Shown here piece by piece: positions 16,100 through 26,791 of a stretch of DNA of 26,792 nt. The position numbers were made by a program, and so were the translations under genes. Below the pieces are notes generated by a model. It saw only the letters and a program-made list of their open reading frames with translations. It was not told the DNA's origin and made no database searches. Numbering within the stretch: position 1 is the first letter of the stretch; each line of letters opens with the position of its first letter. Source of the DNA: a virus. The DNA lies in the IMG/VR virus record IMGVR_UViG_3300005549_000028, positions 1 to 26,792 of that record; one strand, given 5' to 3'.

Positions 16100-17155
16100 A
16101 TGCCAGCAGGACTTTACGTTACCGGTGGAGGCGGGGGAGGCGGCGGCGGATTGCCCGGCGCCCGTCCTCGTGACTACAACTCGGCCAGTGGCGGAGTCCC
16201 GGGCGTCACCTCACCGGTCGACACCATCACCGGCAACCTGGGCAACTTCGGGAACATCATCAACTCGTTGACTGGCGCTTCCACGAAAGCTCTGCGTGAC
16301 CAATATCCGGAGGATTACTTCTCCATCCTTGGAACGCTGCTGGGTAACACCCAACGCCGGGCGGCCGGTGACATCTCAGACTTGCTGCCTGAGCTTCAGC
16401 AAAGCTCTGCCGAAGCGGCTGTGGCTGGTGGCGTTTCCGGGAGCGGCGCCCAGAATACGAAGTTGCTGCGGGACATGGGGCTCACTCGATACGGCGTGGA
16501 GAATCAGGCGCTCAAGGATCTGTCCACGCTGCAAGGCGAGATCCCAACGGTGCGTCCGTTCGATCCCAACGACATCATCCGCCAGCAATTGGATGCTCAG
16601 GAACGGGCTGACCTTTACGCCGCGGCTCCTTCCCCGGAAGCGGCTTACCAGCGGGCAGCGGCGGCGGCCGGCGGCGGAGGTGGTGGTGGGAGCGGCACGC
16701 CAGGATTCCGCTACAACATTCCCGGGGGCGGCGGAGGCAAGACAGCCGATGTCGCATTCAGGGGATTGCCCCAGATGGCACCGCAATTCGGCACAGCTAT
16801 GAACCCGTTCGGTGGTTCGATGGGGATGTCACCGGCTCCTTACGGCAGTTTTGGCGGGGGAGAGGATGATTTCAGTGACGTGTTGAGCGTGTGGAACGAC
16901 AACGACTTTGGAGGGAGCACCGGCTACGGCGGAGGTAACAACTTTTCGACGTCGCTCCAGAATTACGAGGACTTCGACCCGTGGCTGGCGTCTCTCCTGG
17001 ACACGGGCGGCGGCTTGAATTTCGGCAGTGACCAAGGCTTCGGGGGAAGTCTGGATTACGGCGGCGGGAACAGCTTCTATGGTGGCGGGGAAGATTTTGG
17101 GCTGACCGATTACGGTGGTGGCGGCGGCGACTACTTCGATTACTGGGACGCTTAA
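16100..17155 (+). CDS. Gly-rich probable internal virion protein
   Basis: This 351-residue protein starts at ATG 16100, 56 bp downstream of the antisense HNH start. After a polyglycine run near residue 9, a helical segment (residues about 50-160; STKALRDQYPEDYFSILGTL, SSAEAAVAGGVSGSGAQNTK) resembles the small ejection protein of podoviruses (T7 gp14-like) in length and place, just before a coiled-coil protein and a giant protein. The last 100 residues are a low-complexity Gly/Tyr/Phe/Asp/Ser tract (GSLDYGGGNSFYGGGEDFG, DYGGGGGDYFDYWDA) with no Lys or Arg. Aromatic-Gly tracts of this kind tend to self-associate. The role in DNA ejection is inferred from gene order. Confidence 0.55.
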   Translation: MPAGLYVTGGGGGGGGGLPGARPRDYNSASGGVPGVTSPVDTITGNLGNFGNIINSLTGASTKALRDQYPEDYFSILGTLLGNTQRRAAGDISDLLPELQQSSAEAAVAGGVSGSGAQNTKLLRDMGLTRYGVENQALKDLSTLQGEIPTVRPFDPNDIIRQQLDAQERADLYAAAPSPEAAYQRAAAAAGGGGGGGSGTPGFRYNIPGGGGGKTADVAFRGLPQMAPQFGTAMNPFGGSMGMSPAPYGSFGGGEDDFSDVLSVWNDNDFGGSTGYGGGNNFSTSLQNYEDFDPWLASLLDTGGGLNFGSDQGFGGSLDYGGGNSFYGGGEDFGLTDYGGGGGDYFDYWDA

Positions 17156-21100: not shown

Positions 21101-23005
21101 GGCTACGTGCCGAAGACCAAGGACATCTCGAAATTGCTTCCGGTCTACACGCATGAGATGAACTCGGTGATTGCCGCCCGGGAATTGGTTGCACAGATGA
21201 GCAAGGGACGGGCGTCCGATGGCCGTCGTTTGGTGGCTCCAAGAGGAGGAGGCGTGCCAGTGGAAGGAGAGCAGGGAGGTGCAACCCTCGTGCTGCCAAA
21301 GAAAATCAAAGGCGATACAGCCGACTACAAGGTGCTGGCCAATCAGCCGGCGCTTCAAGGGTGGCGTTGGGCATCGAAGGATTCGTCCGGTAACCCTATC
21401 TTTCTAAAAGGCGATCTGGCGCTTCACCCTGAAGCCTATAACCGGTTGAAGAACGTCCTTGGTCGCTCAGCTATTCGGGAATGGTACACGACGCCCACGA
21501 CCAAGGTCGCGGCGATTCCGAAGGCCATCGTGCGAGGGATCGACTTCGCCAATTCGGAAACGAAGCGGACGATGCTTGGGCTCCTCGCACCGTTCCATCA
21601 GGTGCAAACCGGGACTCACGCCATTGGTCATCGGGTGAATCCCTTTGGCGGCATTCCAAAGGTGGATTTGACTGGTAATCAGACTCAGATGGACGCAGCC
21701 AAACATGGGCTGATGTTGTTGCCAGACCGCGCTAGCGAAGGGCAATTCATGGAAGGGTTCAAGACAAGTGGGCTCGTCAGCAAGATTCCTGGCATTGGTC
21801 CGCTGTCGGACATGTACGCGAACTACTTGTTCAAGCAGTACATCCCAGGTCTTAAGTTCAAAACTTACGAAGCGATCCTAAAGCGGAACAACGAGGTTTA
21901 TGCAAAGGATTTGGCTGCCCGAAAACTAAAGCCAGAGGACATCAAAGTATTGTCCGCTGAGCAGGCCAATGCAGCATACGGCCATCTCAATTACGCCGAC
22001 TTGGCCCGTAATCCAACTGTTCAGCACATGGCTCAGATTGGGTTGCTTGCGCCAGATTTCCTTGAGGCTCGTGGTCGCTTCGCGGGGCAAGCTATCAAAG
22101 GCGCGACTGGAGCCAAGGTGGGCCGGGAACAACTCGTCGCGCTGGCCACTCTAGCCATTGCCCAAGCTGCCGCGGCGTTCGTGACGGCGAAGCTTTCAGG
22201 TGGCGATTGGGACAAAGAACATCCGTTCGAGTTCCATGTTGGCAGCCGAAAGTACACCATGAGATCGGTGCCAGAGGACATCTCGGGGCTCATCTCCAAC
22301 ACGCGCAGTTTCGTTCACAGCCGCCTGAGCCCGCTTGTCGGTAAAGGGGCTCTCCAATACGCCAGCGGAGTGGATTACGCCGGTCGCAAGGTAACTGCGG
22401 GCCAGACAACGAAGGAACTGCTGACTCAACCCATTCCGATGACGCTACGGAGTCTTCCTGGCGTGCGTTCGCTCAGCGGTCAAGACCGTCCAGGAGCCAT
22501 TAAGGCCTGGGAACAACTGGCTGGTGCTGTTGGGTTGAAAATCTCCCGCTACAACACACGCACCAAGCTCAACGAACTTCACGCGGACTGGATGAAGAAC
22601 AATCCTGACCCGAAAGTGAAAGCCGATTATGAGCAGCAACAGACGGCGACCTTTCCGGTCAGCAAGTACAAAACTTTGGATTCGGCTTTGGCGGATCGAG
22701 ATGAAGATGGCGCGATTAAGGCGCTCGCAGAACTCAAGGCTGAAGGTCAGAAGAACAAGGACATCTTGAGACGGATGCGTCCCTACGTGGGTGAGGGAAT
22801 CAACTCTCGGACGAAACCGCTGTTCCACGAGTCGCACAAGTTGGAGGCGGCATTCAGGAACAGTCTGACGGCGGAGCAACGAACCGAGTATCGGAAGGCG
22901 ATTGAGGAACGGGCGGCGACATGGCGCGAGTTCCTGAAGGCGTGGCGTAAGCGTGGAACTACGACTGCGGCGCCGAAGATCGACTTTGTTCCTGACACAC
23001 CGTAG
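18149..23005 (+). CDS. Giant internal virion / polyvalent protein (1618 aa)
   Basis: This is the largest protein in the window, coupled to the preceding gene by TAATG. The N-terminus has two related acidic motifs (PIDFIADEED and EIDFIPDAP) and the C-terminus ends with the same motif (KIDFVPDTP). Residues about 60-250 are helical with a conserved-looking GKIAAGTYNAVADLVAGFSS. Residues about 286-462 are Pro/Gln/Glu-rich plus a coiled coil and overlap two small genes in another frame. Residues about 671-760 (VRLFHGEGGPQ, GAFYTSNITKASTFGPDISW) resemble an ADP-ribosyltransferase-like or polyvalent-protein fold, tentatively. The C-terminal half is helical with a hydrophobic segment (QLVALATLAIAQAAAAFVTA). 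It is most likely the gp16-like ejection protein, delivered into the host with the DNA (inference). No transglycosylase motif is evident. Confidence 0.75.
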   Translation: MPIDFIADEEDQDESEIDFIPDAPVAVAEPPRSVIPPPALLADAQSRAEKQADLFAQQQEARRQGEYWEGVANRAENLTRNVVEPLTRPVSGALGRALDVPLNLIRGQAPSTPEQPGTIERTLAAPIVNLPRAREAETTGGKIAAGTYNAVADLVAGFSSPDMLALLPAGGNKTVLTTWLSQMAGHAPERVLRANQLLKEGKTQEAVQEIGTGVAELGMAGMGARHMVREPGAITARDLGPESVDPRFAQDVALQLTNPRNAQRNIRMPESIRELSKEPSTIGVPNALQERRTEAPNGRLPEQPVENAQLPAQEGGGEVPPSRVPPRNEIRPPSAEETGSGALPLELARGTSSTGTSGRALPKEQLPGVQNQPAPGPEVLQEVSRRVDEALENIKSAEARGATKNELSQLRARLSEARKTEEAALRGLRQSEQPNAPPGLQPTAESGLGVSPVSSKATPSALTEASSPLPERFRDKPIAEIADAVKDVTSDEITGYQGNLTGGATGFMWDIGARAKTPADVAALRKIGEEASAKTKELMAAGDLEGAMKVIGRQPAEAYEFATGVKLDGTPKWDTLEKLAANKGKTYTPPVPDLQYLKAKGLEPSKATESAKLEPSAMAAATPEALPADLPSLARLRITKPELREQIDAKIAELQTAAAPAAAALKQLPPVPAGHVRLFHGEGGPQGGGTGGAFYTSNITKASTFGPDISWVDVPTDRATAAFAKAKGSAFAGGDNFILEPTDISRSQKIGQKVEPPTHVLDEPVAPKGIAASVRGPGGLKGSETGAISLAPLQSLVRSTAPPVKAAVEAVTDIAKGAKETGKEALGTERMTDYRRSVLNWSAKLQKSFGEAAATQKDIQTKVPKEVRREGITNWIQADGDAAVLKQRAASTNDPKLKAGYEAALNLTPEEIAVADQVRGIYERMGQRGQAADVLNNFKDNYVTQIWDLGKTKAPAGGSSRTLKERFKFSKASTFPTFFDGEQAGYVPKTKDISKLLPVYTHEMNSVIAARELVAQMSKGRASDGRRLVAPRGGGVPVEGEQGGATLVLPKKIKGDTADYKVLANQPALQGWRWASKDSSGNPIFLKGDLALHPEAYNRLKNVLGRSAIREWYTTPTTKVAAIPKAIVRGIDFANSETKRTMLGLLAPFHQVQTGTHAIGHRVNPFGGIPKVDLTGNQTQMDAAKHGLMLLPDRASEGQFMEGFKTSGLVSKIPGIGPLSDMYANYLFKQYIPGLKFKTYEAILKRNNEVYAKDLAARKLKPEDIKVLSAEQANAAYGHLNYADLARNPTVQHMAQIGLLAPDFLEARGRFAGQAIKGATGAKVGREQLVALATLAIAQAAAAFVTAKLSGGDWDKEHPFEFHVGSRKYTMRSVPEDISGLISNTRSFVHSRLSPLVGKGALQYASGVDYAGRKVTAGQTTKELLTQPIPMTLRSLPGVRSLSGQDRPGAIKAWEQLAGAVGLKISRYNTRTKLNELHADWMKNNPDPKVKADYEQQQTATFPVSKYKTLDSALADRDEDGAIKALAELKAEGQKNKDILRRMRPYVGEGINSRTKPLFHESHKLEAAFRNSLTAEQRTEYRKAIEERAATWREFLKAWRKRGTTTAAPKIDFVPDTP
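18994..18998 (+). promoter_or_regulatory. Shine-Dalgarno for a gene nested in the giant ORF
   Basis: AGGAG lies 6 bases before ATG 19005, an ideal spacing in a window where most starts have no recognisable Shine-Dalgarno sequence. It sits inside the giant gene and serves a different frame, which supports genuine internal initiation. Confidence 0.55.
19005..19184 (+). CDS. Nested small gene, MPYKS-type phage protein
   Basis: This 59-residue protein starts at ATG 19005 in the +1 frame relative to the giant gene and has its own Shine-Dalgarno (18994-18998). Its N-terminus, MPYKSDAQRRLMEGCRNNP, is strongly like a family of small phage proteins starting 'MPYKSxAQRRFF...' (from memory, usually annotated hypothetical). 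In this frame codons end mostly in G or C (TAC AAG AGC GAC), whereas the giant frame here is rich in CAA and CCA, as expected of a shadow. The remainder is Lys/His/Gln-rich. Function is unknown. The pairing with the next nested gene suggests that the two moved in together. Confidence 0.6.
   Translation: MPYKSDAQRRLMEGCRNNPSKMHNCPPKKVVEKFHQAEYHQETRSAHHQQKKRGPVRYH
19170..19241 (+). repeat. Direct repeat pair around a perfect palindrome between nested genes
   Basis: GTGCGTTACCATTAGAAC (19170-19187) and GTGCGTTACCAAAAGAAC (19224-19241) match at 16 of 18 bases, 54 bp apart. Between them is the palindrome GTGGAAC-AA-GTTCCAC (19194-19209). The first copy contains the stop of one nested gene and the second copy begins the other. 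The pattern could be a duplication scar, an insertion footprint or an RNA or operator element. Confidence 0.6.
19224..19535 (+). CDS. Nested HNH-like zinc-binding protein
   Basis: This 103-residue protein runs from GTG 19224 (a TTG at 19188 is also in frame; AGGA at 19210-19213 precedes the GTG), in the +1 frame inside the giant gene. It carries two zinc-type elements: NCQECKTNPRPGQKYCRKCH (C8, C11, C22, C25), and RPCVDCG (C67, C70) with NSQMHHPDYNRPLKVVWVC and VCRPCHLKRHH (H78, H79, C92, C95, H96). The 'CxxCG...HHPDY.RPL.V.WlCrpCH...H' pattern is well known in small phage HNH-type zinc proteins. Codon choice in this frame is typical of the genome. It is probably a mobile HNH endonuclease or nuclease-like factor carried within a virion gene. 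Confidence 0.75.
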   Translation: MRYQKNNCQECKTNPRPGQKYCRKCHAEWMKRWRTSNPLKPEARRKMNCRSYAHVYLKRGKLKKRPCVDCGNPNSQMHHPDYNRPLKVVWVCRPCHLKRHHPH

Positions 23006-24086
23006 GGAATTCCCTTACACGCAGATCCTCGGGCCATTCGGCAGGGTCGCCGCCTTTGGGGTGTTTCGTTTTCAAAGACCACAAGCCGGTTTTGCAATCT
23101 CGTTTAGTCCACTTGAATCCGACCGAATTAACATCGTCTGCGATTGGCACGCTCCCCAACTGCTTCACGAAGCACGGCACGCCCGCCGCTTTGCACTGGC
23201 GCACGATGTCGCGGATCCATTCCACGTTGCACGGACGGGCACCCGGTCCGCTCTCGCCGCCAACGATGACCCAGTGAATTCCGTTGTCGCATCTAGCGAT
23301 ATAAGTTGCCCGCGCAGTCTGCGCGATCCAGTCGTCGCGTTGCTTCTCCGTCCTGTCTTTGAAGTCTGCCGGGAACTTAACATCCGTGCTGCCTTTGAAA
23401 CCGAGATCCACCGGCCCCAGCAACGGCTCCACGCTCAGGAAACGCACTTTGGCCGGAATCTTCAGCAACTCCGGGATCCGTTCATCCGCCCGCTTTTGGT
23501 CCTCTACGCTGGTACCGATCCAGATGTTGGCGGGTGGTTTTCCGCCGCACCAATTCACCAGCATCGCCGACATCGGAAGGTTATAGGCAACTGGCTCCAA
23601 CGACTCGTGCGCTTTGATAATGCGCGACTCCCAATTCTCCGGCCTCTTCGTTAGCAAAAGCCAATCGAGATGCTGGCAGTCTTTGGTCAGCTTCAGAAAA
23701 TCCGCCAGCCATTCGATCGGCACCTCGTCATCCAGCCAGTCGCAAAGGCTCGGGAACACCCGGAAACGATTCGGGTTCGTGCCCCTCAAAGCACCGCAGC
23801 GAAAGCACGTTGGCATCCGTTGATCGCCACCGTTCCCGCACTGCGGACACGCAAATGGATACTTCTGCAATTGCCGATTCCACTTCAGCGGATTGCGCCA
23901 TGTTGCTGCGCTCGTTCGGCTACGGGCCTTTCCTTTACCCCAAGTCTCATGACCCTGACTGCGCAGCACCCTGGCCCGCGTAGTGTTCTCGGCGTAACAG
24001 TGGGCGCACCCCGGACTGACCTTCGTGCAACCGATCCACGGGTTAAAGGTCGCTGTCGCCCACTCGATTTTAGTTTCGTCACTCAT
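22959..24086 (-). CDS. Phage Gp37/Gp68 family protein (DUF5131) with zinc-ribbon insert
   Basis: This 375-residue protein starts at ATG 24086; the frame extends to 24158 but the family begins at MSDETKIEW. Recognised elements: FNPWIGCTKVSPGCAHCYAE (C20, C27, C30, a cluster-type Cys motif), RVFPSLCDWLDDEVPIEWL, LDWLLLTKRPENW, IWIGTSVEDQKRADERIPEL, RFLSVEPLLGPVDL, WVIVGGESGPGARPCNVEWI and CFVKQLGS. This DUF5131 family is common in phages and has a TIM-barrel/radical-SAM-like pattern; its substrate is unknown to me. Between the first two blocks lies an apparent insert with paired CPQC and CFRC (C80, C83, C94, C97), probably a zinc ribbon. The C-terminus overlaps the end of the giant gene by 47 bp, convergently. 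Confidence 0.9.
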   Translation of the reverse strand: MSDETKIEWATATFNPWIGCTKVSPGCAHCYAENTTRARVLRSQGHETWGKGKARSRTSAATWRNPLKWNRQLQKYPFACPQCGNGGDQRMPTCFRCGALRGTNPNRFRVFPSLCDWLDDEVPIEWLADFLKLTKDCQHLDWLLLTKRPENWESRIIKAHESLEPVAYNLPMSAMLVNWCGGKPPANIWIGTSVEDQKRADERIPELLKIPAKVRFLSVEPLLGPVDLGFKGSTDVKFPADFKDRTEKQRDDWIAQTARATYIARCDNGIHWVIVGGESGPGARPCNVEWIRDIVRQCKAAGVPCFVKQLGSVPIADDVNSVGFKWTKRDCKTGLWSLKTKHPKGGDPAEWPEDLRVREFPTVCQEQSRSSAPQS

Positions 24087-24673
24087 AGCCTTTTGAACTC
24101 GATCACCCACACCCACGGATTCGTTTTCCAGGAGCCTTTGCCATTGATGGATTCCCACAAGTTTCGGTAACAGAGAAAACCTTCATCTGCTCCCGTCGCT
24201 TGTGGATCTTCAGCGTAAGGATTTACCCACCACCCGCGGTGCACATGCATCAATCCTTCCGCTTCACAATCGCGATAGCTGATGTCCTGCAACCGCTCCA
24301 CGCGCACCGAGACTATTTCGAGCGTGATGCGGGAATGTTTTCGGCGCATGAAAATGGATGGTTTCCATTTCATGTCGGTGAGGTTCTTCTCCCCGCCGGC
24401 GCGATAGACTGTTTGTCCGTGATGGCAATCGAGCGTTGAAAACGTCTCCCTCACCCACAGCCGATCGCCGGGTTTGCCGTAGAGGTTTCTTACCGACTGT
24501 TCAGCGGCTTCAAGGTCCAGAAATTCCCATCGGTCACCTTCGTAGCAGATAGGCGAAATGCCCCCCTCTCTATCTTTTGGCTGCGGCTTCACCACCCGCC
24601 GCGTCTGAGTCTTGCGACCTTCGAGGATGGCGCGGACCATCGGGCCACTGAACAGAATCGGTCTTTCGATCAT
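24083..24673 (-). CDS. ASCH/PUA-like phage protein
   Basis: This 196-residue protein begins MIERPILFSGPMVRAILEGR followed by KTQTRRVVKPQP, an opening I recognise from a widespread family of phage proteins with an ASCH-like (PUA-related) fold. Further blocks are KPGDRLWVRETF, ITLEIVSVRVERLQDISYRD and the closing NPWVWVIEFKRL. ASCH domains are thought to bind RNA or nucleotides; a precise role here is unknown. The gene overlaps the DUF5131 start and the preceding stop by 4 bp on each side, so it is translated as part of the minus-strand operon. It lies next to DUF5131, as I recall is common in other phages. Confidence 0.82.
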   Translation of the reverse strand: MIERPILFSGPMVRAILEGRKTQTRRVVKPQPKDREGGISPICYEGDRWEFLDLEAAEQSVRNLYGKPGDRLWVRETFSTLDCHHGQTVYRAGGEKNLTDMKWKPSIFMRRKHSRITLEIVSVRVERLQDISYRDCEAEGLMHVHRGWWVNPYAEDPQATGADEGFLCYRNLWESINGKGSWKTNPWVWVIEFKRL

Positions 24674-25014: not shown

Positions 25015-25223
25015 GATGATTTCTGAGGTAACCACTCACCTTGTGCCGGCGGCACTTTCACAATCTCCTCGATCGCTTCGCTCGCCTCTTTTTCGGCCAT
25101 CTCCACCATCCAGGGCTCAGGCTCCGCTGACTCACAGAGGCTCCCAAGCCGTTCATCTCGTCGATAGTTCCACTCCTCGAGCAACTGGCTCCACGTCCAA
25201 CCGTTTCGGGCAAGTCGGCTCAT
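25011..25223 (-). CDS. Small acidic protein in the replication operon
   Basis: This 70-residue protein starts at ATG 25223, overlapping the replication gene's stop as ATGA, and its own stop overlaps the next start the same way. An N-terminal Trp-rich basic segment (MSRLARNGWTWSQLLEEWNY) precedes an acidic helix (EPWMVEMAEKEASEAIEEIV). No family is recognised. The tight overlaps on both sides support it being real and translated with the operon. Confidence 0.68.
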   Translation of the reverse strand: MSRLARNGWTWSQLLEEWNYRRDERLGSLCESAEPEPWMVEMAEKEASEAIEEIVKVPPAQGEWLPQKSS

Positions 25224-26074
25224 GTCTGAATCCCCAGCAGTTTCTTCAACTCATCGCGCCTGGCCTTGAGCTTGTACCACTTCCCCTTGTCCTCCTCTGA
25301 CCAATTCTGGTGCCCCGAATAAGTGCTTCGAATCGATTGCATCTTTGAAAGAACCTCGTCCAGTTCCTTCTGATGTAAGATGGCCCGTGTAGTCGGACTT
25401 ACGTTGGTTTTGGCCGGTGCCGTTTCCTCTCTCCAGCGTCTTGCCCAACCAGCCACGGAATGACCTACGCTCACCATTTTTGTTTTGCCAACCATCCAGC
25501 CTTTCGACTGGTAGAAATCCCAGAACGCATCCGCCTGTTCGATGGGCATTCCAGCTTTGGCGGCGAGAAGCCCTACTTCCTCCCGGCTCGGTGGAATTTG
25601 CCTTTTAGGTTTGAGTGATCTCTCAGTACTTGCTTCTGCTTCTGCTTCTGCTTCTGCATAAGCCGGTTTTTGTCCTGCTTTGTCCACGGCATGTCCACGA
25701 GTTTTTAGCCTCTGCCTTCTCTCTCCTTCTTTAACCCGCTTGTACTCACGGCGTTCCTCTTTTGACATCAACTCTCGATATTCGTCGTAGTTCAAAAGGC
25801 GCCAGCCATTGTGAATCGCCACTATCCTACGACCTTCATTGGCCTTGTTTCTCGAGTACTCGTCTGGAGCAATAAACTTATTCAGAGCCTCTTGCACAAC
25901 TTCAATGGTCACATTTGCCACCCGAGCCAGTCCTGGAATTGAAGTGCAAACCTCACCATATTGGTCGGCTAAAGCGAGCATTGTGACCCAAACCACTCGA
26001 ATATCTGACCGTTCGCTCCAAACTGATGACGTGACCAAACTACAGGCAATCTTAACGTAGGCTCGGTGATTCAT
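25220..26074 (-). CDS. Phage replication initiator / replisome organiser
   Basis: This 284-residue protein starts at ATG 26074, chosen because the family begins near MNHRAYVKIACSLVTSSVW; a GTG at 26134 (GTGA overlap) would add 20 residues. Residues 1 to about 110 form a winged-helix domain of a common phage replication family (RVVWVTMLALADQYGEVCTS, GLARVANVTIEVVQEALNKF). A basic segment follows (SKEERREYKRVKEGERRQRL), then an Ala-Glu dipeptide linker (AEAEAEAEAS) and a C-terminal domain with W-x-x-A-x-W-type pattern (SVGHSVAGWARRWREE). Such proteins bind the origin and load the helicase. Iteron-like repeats lie inside the gene (25671-25699) and just upstream (26085-26146), as in lambda, where the origin lies within the O gene. 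Confidence 0.8.
   Translation of the reverse strand: MNHRAYVKIACSLVTSSVWSERSDIRVVWVTMLALADQYGEVCTSIPGLARVANVTIEVVQEALNKFIAPDEYSRNKANEGRRIVAIHNGWRLLNYDEYRELMSKEERREYKRVKEGERRQRLKTRGHAVDKAGQKPAYAEAEAEAEASTERSLKPKRQIPPSREEVGLLAAKAGMPIEQADAFWDFYQSKGWMVGKTKMVSVGHSVAGWARRWREETAPAKTNVSPTTRAILHQKELDEVLSKMQSIRSTYSGHQNWSEEDKGKWYKLKARRDELKKLLGIQT
25631..25657 (-). repeat. Hexanucleotide microsatellite in the replication gene
   Basis: TGCTTC is repeated four and a half times (plus strand), encoding the Ala-Glu linker of the initiator on the minus strand. Slippage by whole units changes linker length without a frameshift. It lies between the DNA-binding and C-terminal domains. Confidence 0.85.
25671..25699. 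promoter_or_regulatory. Iteron pair TGTCCACG inside the replication gene
   Basis: TGTCCACG occurs at 25681-25688 and 25692-25699, with a period of 11 bp (one helical turn). A partial copy, TGTCCTGC, is at 25671-25678. The same octamer pair with the same period recurs at 26085-26103. It is a likely binding site for the initiator encoded here. Confidence 0.6.
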
Positions 26075-26084
26075 GGATAGTAAT

Positions 26085-26146
26085 TGTCCACGGTCTGTCC
26101 ACGTAGTCAACGCCAAGGAAGCCGAGTTACTCACAAGTTATTCACA
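26085..26146. promoter_or_regulatory. Candidate phage origin: iterons and DnaA-box-like sites
   Basis: TGTCCACG occurs at 26085-26092 and 26096-26103 (11-bp period). TTACTCACA (26127-26135) and TTATTCACA (26138-26146) are also 11 bp apart; the second fits the DnaA-box consensus TTATNCACA exactly. The cluster lies in the 56-bp gap between the small HTH gene and the ATG of the replication gene, extending into the HTH gene's end. Together with the matching pair inside the replication gene, it looks like an origin. Confidence 0.55.
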
Positions 26147-26316
26147 GAGGCTCTCCGGACGAACACCACCCGGGCGTTCAAACGGCGGGTGATTTCGGGT
26201 TTGAGTTTGCCGCTGGCGATCATCCGGCGAATGGTGCCGATGCTGACCCTGCGCTCCAGAGCCCTTTCGAAAACCCACTCCTTCAACCGCTGTTCGCTGC
26301 GGGCAGTTGTTATCAT
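26131..26316 (-). CDS. Small helix-turn-helix (excisionase-like) protein
   Basis: This 61-residue protein starts at ATG 26316 (ATGA overlap with the preceding reading frame's stop). The core ERALERRVSIGTIRRMIASG followed by KLKPEITRRLNARVVFVRR is a MerR/excisionase-type helix-turn-helix: recognition helix, short wing, and a strand reading ARVVFVRR. Such proteins are small DNA-binding regulators, or excisionases when an integrase is nearby; no integrase is visible here. Given the iterons just downstream, it may regulate the replication gene. Confidence 0.75.
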   Translation of the reverse strand: MITTARSEQRLKEWVFERALERRVSIGTIRRMIASGKLKPEITRRLNARVVFVRRASVNNL

Positions 26317-26655: not shown

Positions 26656-26663
26656 AAAGTGAT

Positions 26664-26791
26664 TGGATGCGGCGGGATTTGAACCCGCTTTCTCTAGTAT
26701 GCCCGGTTATGAACCTGGGTTGAGCGAAGGACCACGACCTACACGCGTTCGATCGTGGTGTCTCGGCGGCTGTCCATCCGCTGTCGCACCC
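26664..26791 (-). tRNA. tRNA-like element with CAT anticodon and an extra hairpin
   Basis: On the minus strand, GGGTGCG (26791-26785) pairs with CGCATCC (26671-26665; one G-T) as a 7-bp acceptor stem, followed by discriminator A (26664). A perfect T arm precedes the 3' strand: GCGGG-TTCAAAT-CCCGC (26688-26672). A 7-nt loop TTCATAA with anticodon CAT sits on a stem with one A-G mismatch (CCAGG/CCGGG, 26718-26702). A D-arm-like GCGG/CCGC follows the acceptor. An additional 7-bp hairpin (ACCACGA/TCGTGGT) lies between the D and anticodon arms, giving 128 nt instead of about 75. No CCA is encoded. It may be a degenerate or intron-like-containing tRNA-Met/Ile2, or a tRNA mimic. Confidence 0.45.

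Follow-up and report, generated by a model that had tools for sequence, protein, structure and literature searches.

Phased octamer pairs in and ahead of an initiator gene suggest a lambda-type replication origin in an uncultured phage

Introduction

The replication origin of phage lambda is located inside the O gene, where 19-bp inverted-repeat iterons are followed by a 40-bp A+T-rich stretch (PMC5043065). Two other kinds of short site bear on the locus described here: the actinobacterial DnaA box, TTGTCCACA (PMC4285127), and the arm-type sites of P2-like integrases, which have a pair of arms, each made up of two direct repeats (PMC3931495).

We analysed a 26,792-nt stretch of viral DNA, referred to as the window, which is the entire IMG/VR record IMGVR_UViG_3300005549_000028. 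The record is linear and may be a fragment, and our counts cover 26.8 kb that may not be the full genome. Among known arrangements, lambda ori in gene O comes closest, and by analogy the region around the boxes may work like an origin of that type. In both, repeated initiator-type sites lie within the coding region of what appears to be the phage's own initiator. The repeats themselves differ, being 19-bp inverted repeats in lambda and 8-bp direct repeats, paired one turn apart, here; the window also has a second pair on a candidate promoter, and no strong A+T-rich stretch. This is a likeness of arrangement, and protein homology is not part of the comparison.

Results

The octamer TGTCCACG occurs on the plus strand at 25681, 25692, 26085 and 26096. 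The original prediction had described four copies as two pairs with exact 11-bp spacing, one pair inside a replication gene and the other just before its ATG, and both the spacing and the placement hold. Written as 20-mers, the in-gene pair TTGTCCACGGCATGTCCACG (25680..25699, plus strand) and the upstream pair TTGTCCACGGTCTGTCCACG (26084..26103, plus strand) are identical at 18/20 positions and lie 404 bp apart, and such 20-mers are found at two places only across the whole record. The in-gene boxes map to codons 126 and 129 in the initiator gene and to two different reading frames, so the protein sequence does not explain the repeats there. The upstream pair is at -28 and -17 from the initiator ATG, in the spacer of a candidate promoter. 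A fifth, single copy at 16521 is the only one outside the pairs, giving five found against 1.05 expected over the 26.8-kb window, a count that 0 shuffles reached; four of the five fall within 423 bp. The pairs are far beyond chance. Beside the in-gene boxes, tandem TGCTTC units at 25631-25657 code for an EAEAEAEA stretch in the linker of the protein.

The prediction had further drawn attention to TTACTCACA (26127-26135) and TTATTCACA (26138-26146), both on the plus strand, reading the latter as a DnaA box. Their 11-bp spacing is as described, and they could be degenerate iterons or DnaA-like boxes, but as a DnaA-box signal TTATTCACA is weak. It is the sole match to TTATNCACA in the window, at 26138, where a DnaA-box cluster would hold several, and since 18/100 shuffles also contain a match, it is not significant alone. 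The pair is therefore weak evidence by itself. A strong AT-rich unwinding element was sought near the boxes and none was found, AT content being at most 58% in 50-bp windows. GC skew of the linear record follows gene strand and is hence uninformative on the origin.

The gene that holds the first pair (25220..26074, minus strand) is predicted to encode a replication initiator of 284 aa, as judged from a phrog_15768 match in its C-terminal part (E 7.5e-14), its relatives, an AlphaFold (AF2) model and viral fold matches. The tail of the protein (FWDFYQSKGWMVGKTKM...W) recurs in many phage proteins, some of them annotated as replication initiation protein or DUF4373. The model (mean pLDDT 78) is laid out as a winged helix at about residues 20-95, a linker at 129-154 with pLDDT below 50, and a helical C-terminal tail, and the in-gene box pair sits where the linker begins. 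Named best viral fold matches include replication initiator, DnaD-domain and Lin1244/Lin1753-like proteins. Foldseek against the PDB returned no confident match, and the solved-structure match from VIA-align is a CRP-type winged helix (Z ~8, residues 21-95), a generic fold. Sequence and model together indicate a winged-helix protein with a tail common to phage replication initiators and DnaD-like loaders.

Upstream of the initiator ATG at 26074, a GTG-started frame extends to 26134. Homology with relatives begins at the ATG, which most likely places the second TGTCCACG pair ahead of the coding region. There it lies between the -35 TTGACT and the -10 GACAAT of a candidate initiator promoter, TTGACT-16-GACAAT (26083..26110, minus strand). 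Just upstream of the initiator is a small HTH_17-like gene of 61 aa (26131..26316, minus strand; its Pfam HTH_17 match, E 0.007, does not reach the family cut-off), whose 3' end overlaps the TTAYTCACA boxes. A DUF5131 gene at 22959-24158 (minus strand; Pfam E 6e-69) is part of a minus-strand gene cluster. A search for near relatives of the phage via its 1618-aa protein found none.

Homologues of the initiator N-terminal domain provide a view of the upstream boxes in other phages. L158, found by DNA pattern alone, has five boxes directly before a gene matching this domain (phmmer E ~6e-16), with TGTCCACG at -90, -79 and -68 and TGTCCATT at -59 and -50. Besides L158 there are two independent homologues, one of them without boxes. 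The other, represented by L191 and L192 and found by protein search, carries TGTCCAC-like boxes upstream (TGTCCACT at -79, TATCCACG at -68, TGTCCATT at -59 and TGTCCACT at -50) at exactly four of the positions in the L158 array; four such boxes appeared in 0/20,000 Markov shuffles. Recurrence in relatives, on which the original prediction had staked itself, is thus seen at L158 and L191/L192 and fails at L193, a homologue that lacks the octamer. Relative to the gene, the boxes of the window are oriented opposite to those of L158 and L191. L158, L191 and L193 share with the window a TTGAC at -34 to -36 (4/4 members). In these three homologues the hexamer would place the 5' end of the transcript on or next to the start codon, and the mRNA may be leaderless. 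No match was returned by tblastn of the L158 protein against phages or of the N-terminal domain against plasmids, and Rfam found nothing on the homologues' loci. The sole other exact matches to the 20-mer pattern, L067/L068, have no homologous gene near their boxes and offer no test of the origin idea.

These upstream arrays bear on the possibility that the TGTCCACG boxes are only operators, with the winged-helix protein autoregulating its own promoter and the origin lying elsewhere. The position of the upstream pair between candidate -35 and -10 elements fits such a role, as do the L158 and L191 arrays, which lie just upstream of a TTGACA hexamer. Neither the L158 nor the L191 gene contains an array, though a single reverse copy stands at the start of the L158 gene; the two proteins have no tail and could be plain regulators. 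The other pair of the window, however, lies ~375 bp from the gene start, in the linker region; phased iterons recur there across the tail-bearing family, and we consider a purely regulatory role for the boxes unlikely.

To describe that family we assembled 27 distinct initiators with the shared C-terminal tail, chosen without regard to the octamer and made distinct by loose k-mer clustering, and took 326 further windows from the contigs that carry them as controls. At a spacing of 22 bp, exact 8-mer repeats were present in 10/27 initiators and 6/326 control windows (p 7e-9), and at 11 bp in 8/27 and 12/326 (p 3e-5). Repeats at 10-12 and 21-23 bp are mostly found shortly before the tail, 0.73-0.80 of the way to it. 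Neither 11 nor 22 is divisible by three, so amino-acid repetition does not produce such repeats; 24 is divisible by three, and a 24-bp spacing too is frequent in the family genes (9/27), which means that some of the repetition may arise at the protein level. L044, L058, L187, L056, L057 and L186 each have 4-6 copies of their own 8-mer, one per 11 or 22-23 bp, in linker-coding DNA. Members such as L132, L127, L187, L056 and L058 share with the window the kind of C-terminal tail, a variable linker and phased linker iterons, and differ from it in their N-terminal domains and mostly in iteron sequence and spacing (11 or 22-23 bp). The octamer itself occurs inside DnaD-like or phrog_15768 initiator genes at L132 (7 boxes), L127 (3) and L171 (2), which are non-integrase loci among the matches listed, and the seven boxes of L132 are in the gene with none elsewhere in 10 kb. 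Because it was the octamer that brought these three loci into view, the sequence they have in common does not count as separate evidence for one recogniser.

Linker iteron sequences differ from phage to phage (TATCGCAA, CTATTAAA, GAACAGCA, CCAACAAG), and such divergence among related initiators favours sites for the cognate initiator over host DnaA boxes. Were the boxes host DnaA boxes, they would bring DnaA to the origin or promoter of the phage. TTGTCCACG is two positions off TTATCCACA and one off the actinobacterial TTGTCCACA (PMC4285127); the L191 array holds TTATCCACG in register, and TTATTCACA lies near the TGTCCACG boxes. Yet all four boxes end in G rather than A, the base preceding TGTCCACG is variable, and the linker iterons of the related initiators are unlike DnaA boxes, all of which makes a host DnaA role decidedly unlikely.

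The octamer is also found in a different setting. An IMG/VR scan for TGTCCACGNNNTGTCCAC gave at least 119 matches, with 85 distinct contexts among the matches listed, and a control scan with the reversed pattern gave 41 matches in all, with 32 contexts. Among the matches listed, 24/85 distinct TGTCCACGNNNTGTCCAC contexts have a tyrosine integrase gene no more than 600 bp away, compared with 0/32 in the control (Fisher p 1.6e-4). In several listed contexts, two pairs on one strand, separated by 201-252 bp, sit next to the integrase, as P2-type arm sites do. At eight viral_contigs loci (L081, L122, L126, L128, L170, L099, L073 and L091), tandem TGTCCACG pairs with 11-bp spacing lie beside or within integrase 3' ends, and these are apparently arm-type sites common to very different phages. 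At L176, a cluster of ~11 TGTCCAC boxes (~6185) is located where a ParB-like gene begins.

The two pairs of the window could accordingly be arm-type sites of a tyrosine integrase, flanking the core of a P2-type attP. They share with such sites the tandem TGTCCACG, the 11-bp spacing and the two direct pairs, and because the tandem octamer is common beside integrases, the motif alone cannot decide between origin and attachment site. A tRNA-like sequence at the contig end would also suit an attachment site. It folds at 26663-26791 (minus strand) with an acceptor, a D-like arm, an anticodon-like arm (CAT) preceded by an extra hairpin, and a perfect T arm; the fold z is -2.8. ARAGORN called no tRNA there, and the Rfam tmRNA model matches weakly (14 bits). 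Arm sites are nonetheless very improbable here, as the record, which may be a fragment, has no PF00589 match even at E 1, the 43-kb record of L191 lacks a tyrosine integrase, the pairs lie at a replication gene and further apart than P2-type arms (404 bp, with coding sequence between), and homologues keep boxes at fixed places ahead of an initiator-like gene.

Discussion

Our preferred reading, that this region is a lambda-type phage replication origin in and around the initiator gene, together with an autoregulatory operator, is probably correct. An origin of this type combines an initiator-like DNA-binding protein encoded at the site with multiple phased iterons inside the coding region. The window appears to have the first in its predicted winged helix and initiator tail, and the second in one pair at codons 126 and 129, a placement matched by the family-wide enrichment. 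The repeats with their phasing and position are observed, as are their recurrence in homologues and the linker iterons throughout the family. The original prediction's parallel between helically phased repeats within an initiator gene and lambda ori is therefore supported by the linker iterons across the family and by the arrays upstream of L158 and L191/L192, with qualifications: L193 lacks the octamer, the case for a DnaA box is weak, integrase arm sites match the octamer as well, and no strong AT-rich element is visible. Against an origin, too, are the presence of only four paired boxes, the AT content of at most 58%, the generic fold of the winged-helix N-terminal domain, the reversed box orientation in L158 and L191, and the missing tail and in-gene array of those two homologues.

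We suggest that the phage's own winged-helix initiator would bind the TGTCCACG boxes, two per site and on the same helix face. The linker-coding pair would serve as origin iterons, where bound initiator could open or mark the origin, after which the tail might bring in or load the replicative helicase in the manner of DnaD-like and O-like initiators. At the pair over the promoter, the initiator may repress its own synthesis or couple transcription to it.

More broadly, it is conceivable, though doubtful at present, that phage initiators sharing one tail repeatedly carry their origin as phased linker iterons whose sequence changes with the DNA-binding domain, some having converged on, or sharing ancestry with, the TGTCCACG motif of integrase arms. 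Tandem TGTCCACG pairs by themselves do not separate an origin from an attachment site. Overall, this work provides a candidate origin for a phage that had no near relative in our analysis, and it suggests a rule for locating origins in uncultured phages, namely to search the DNA coding for the initiator's linker for 8-mers that recur at 11 or 22 bp.
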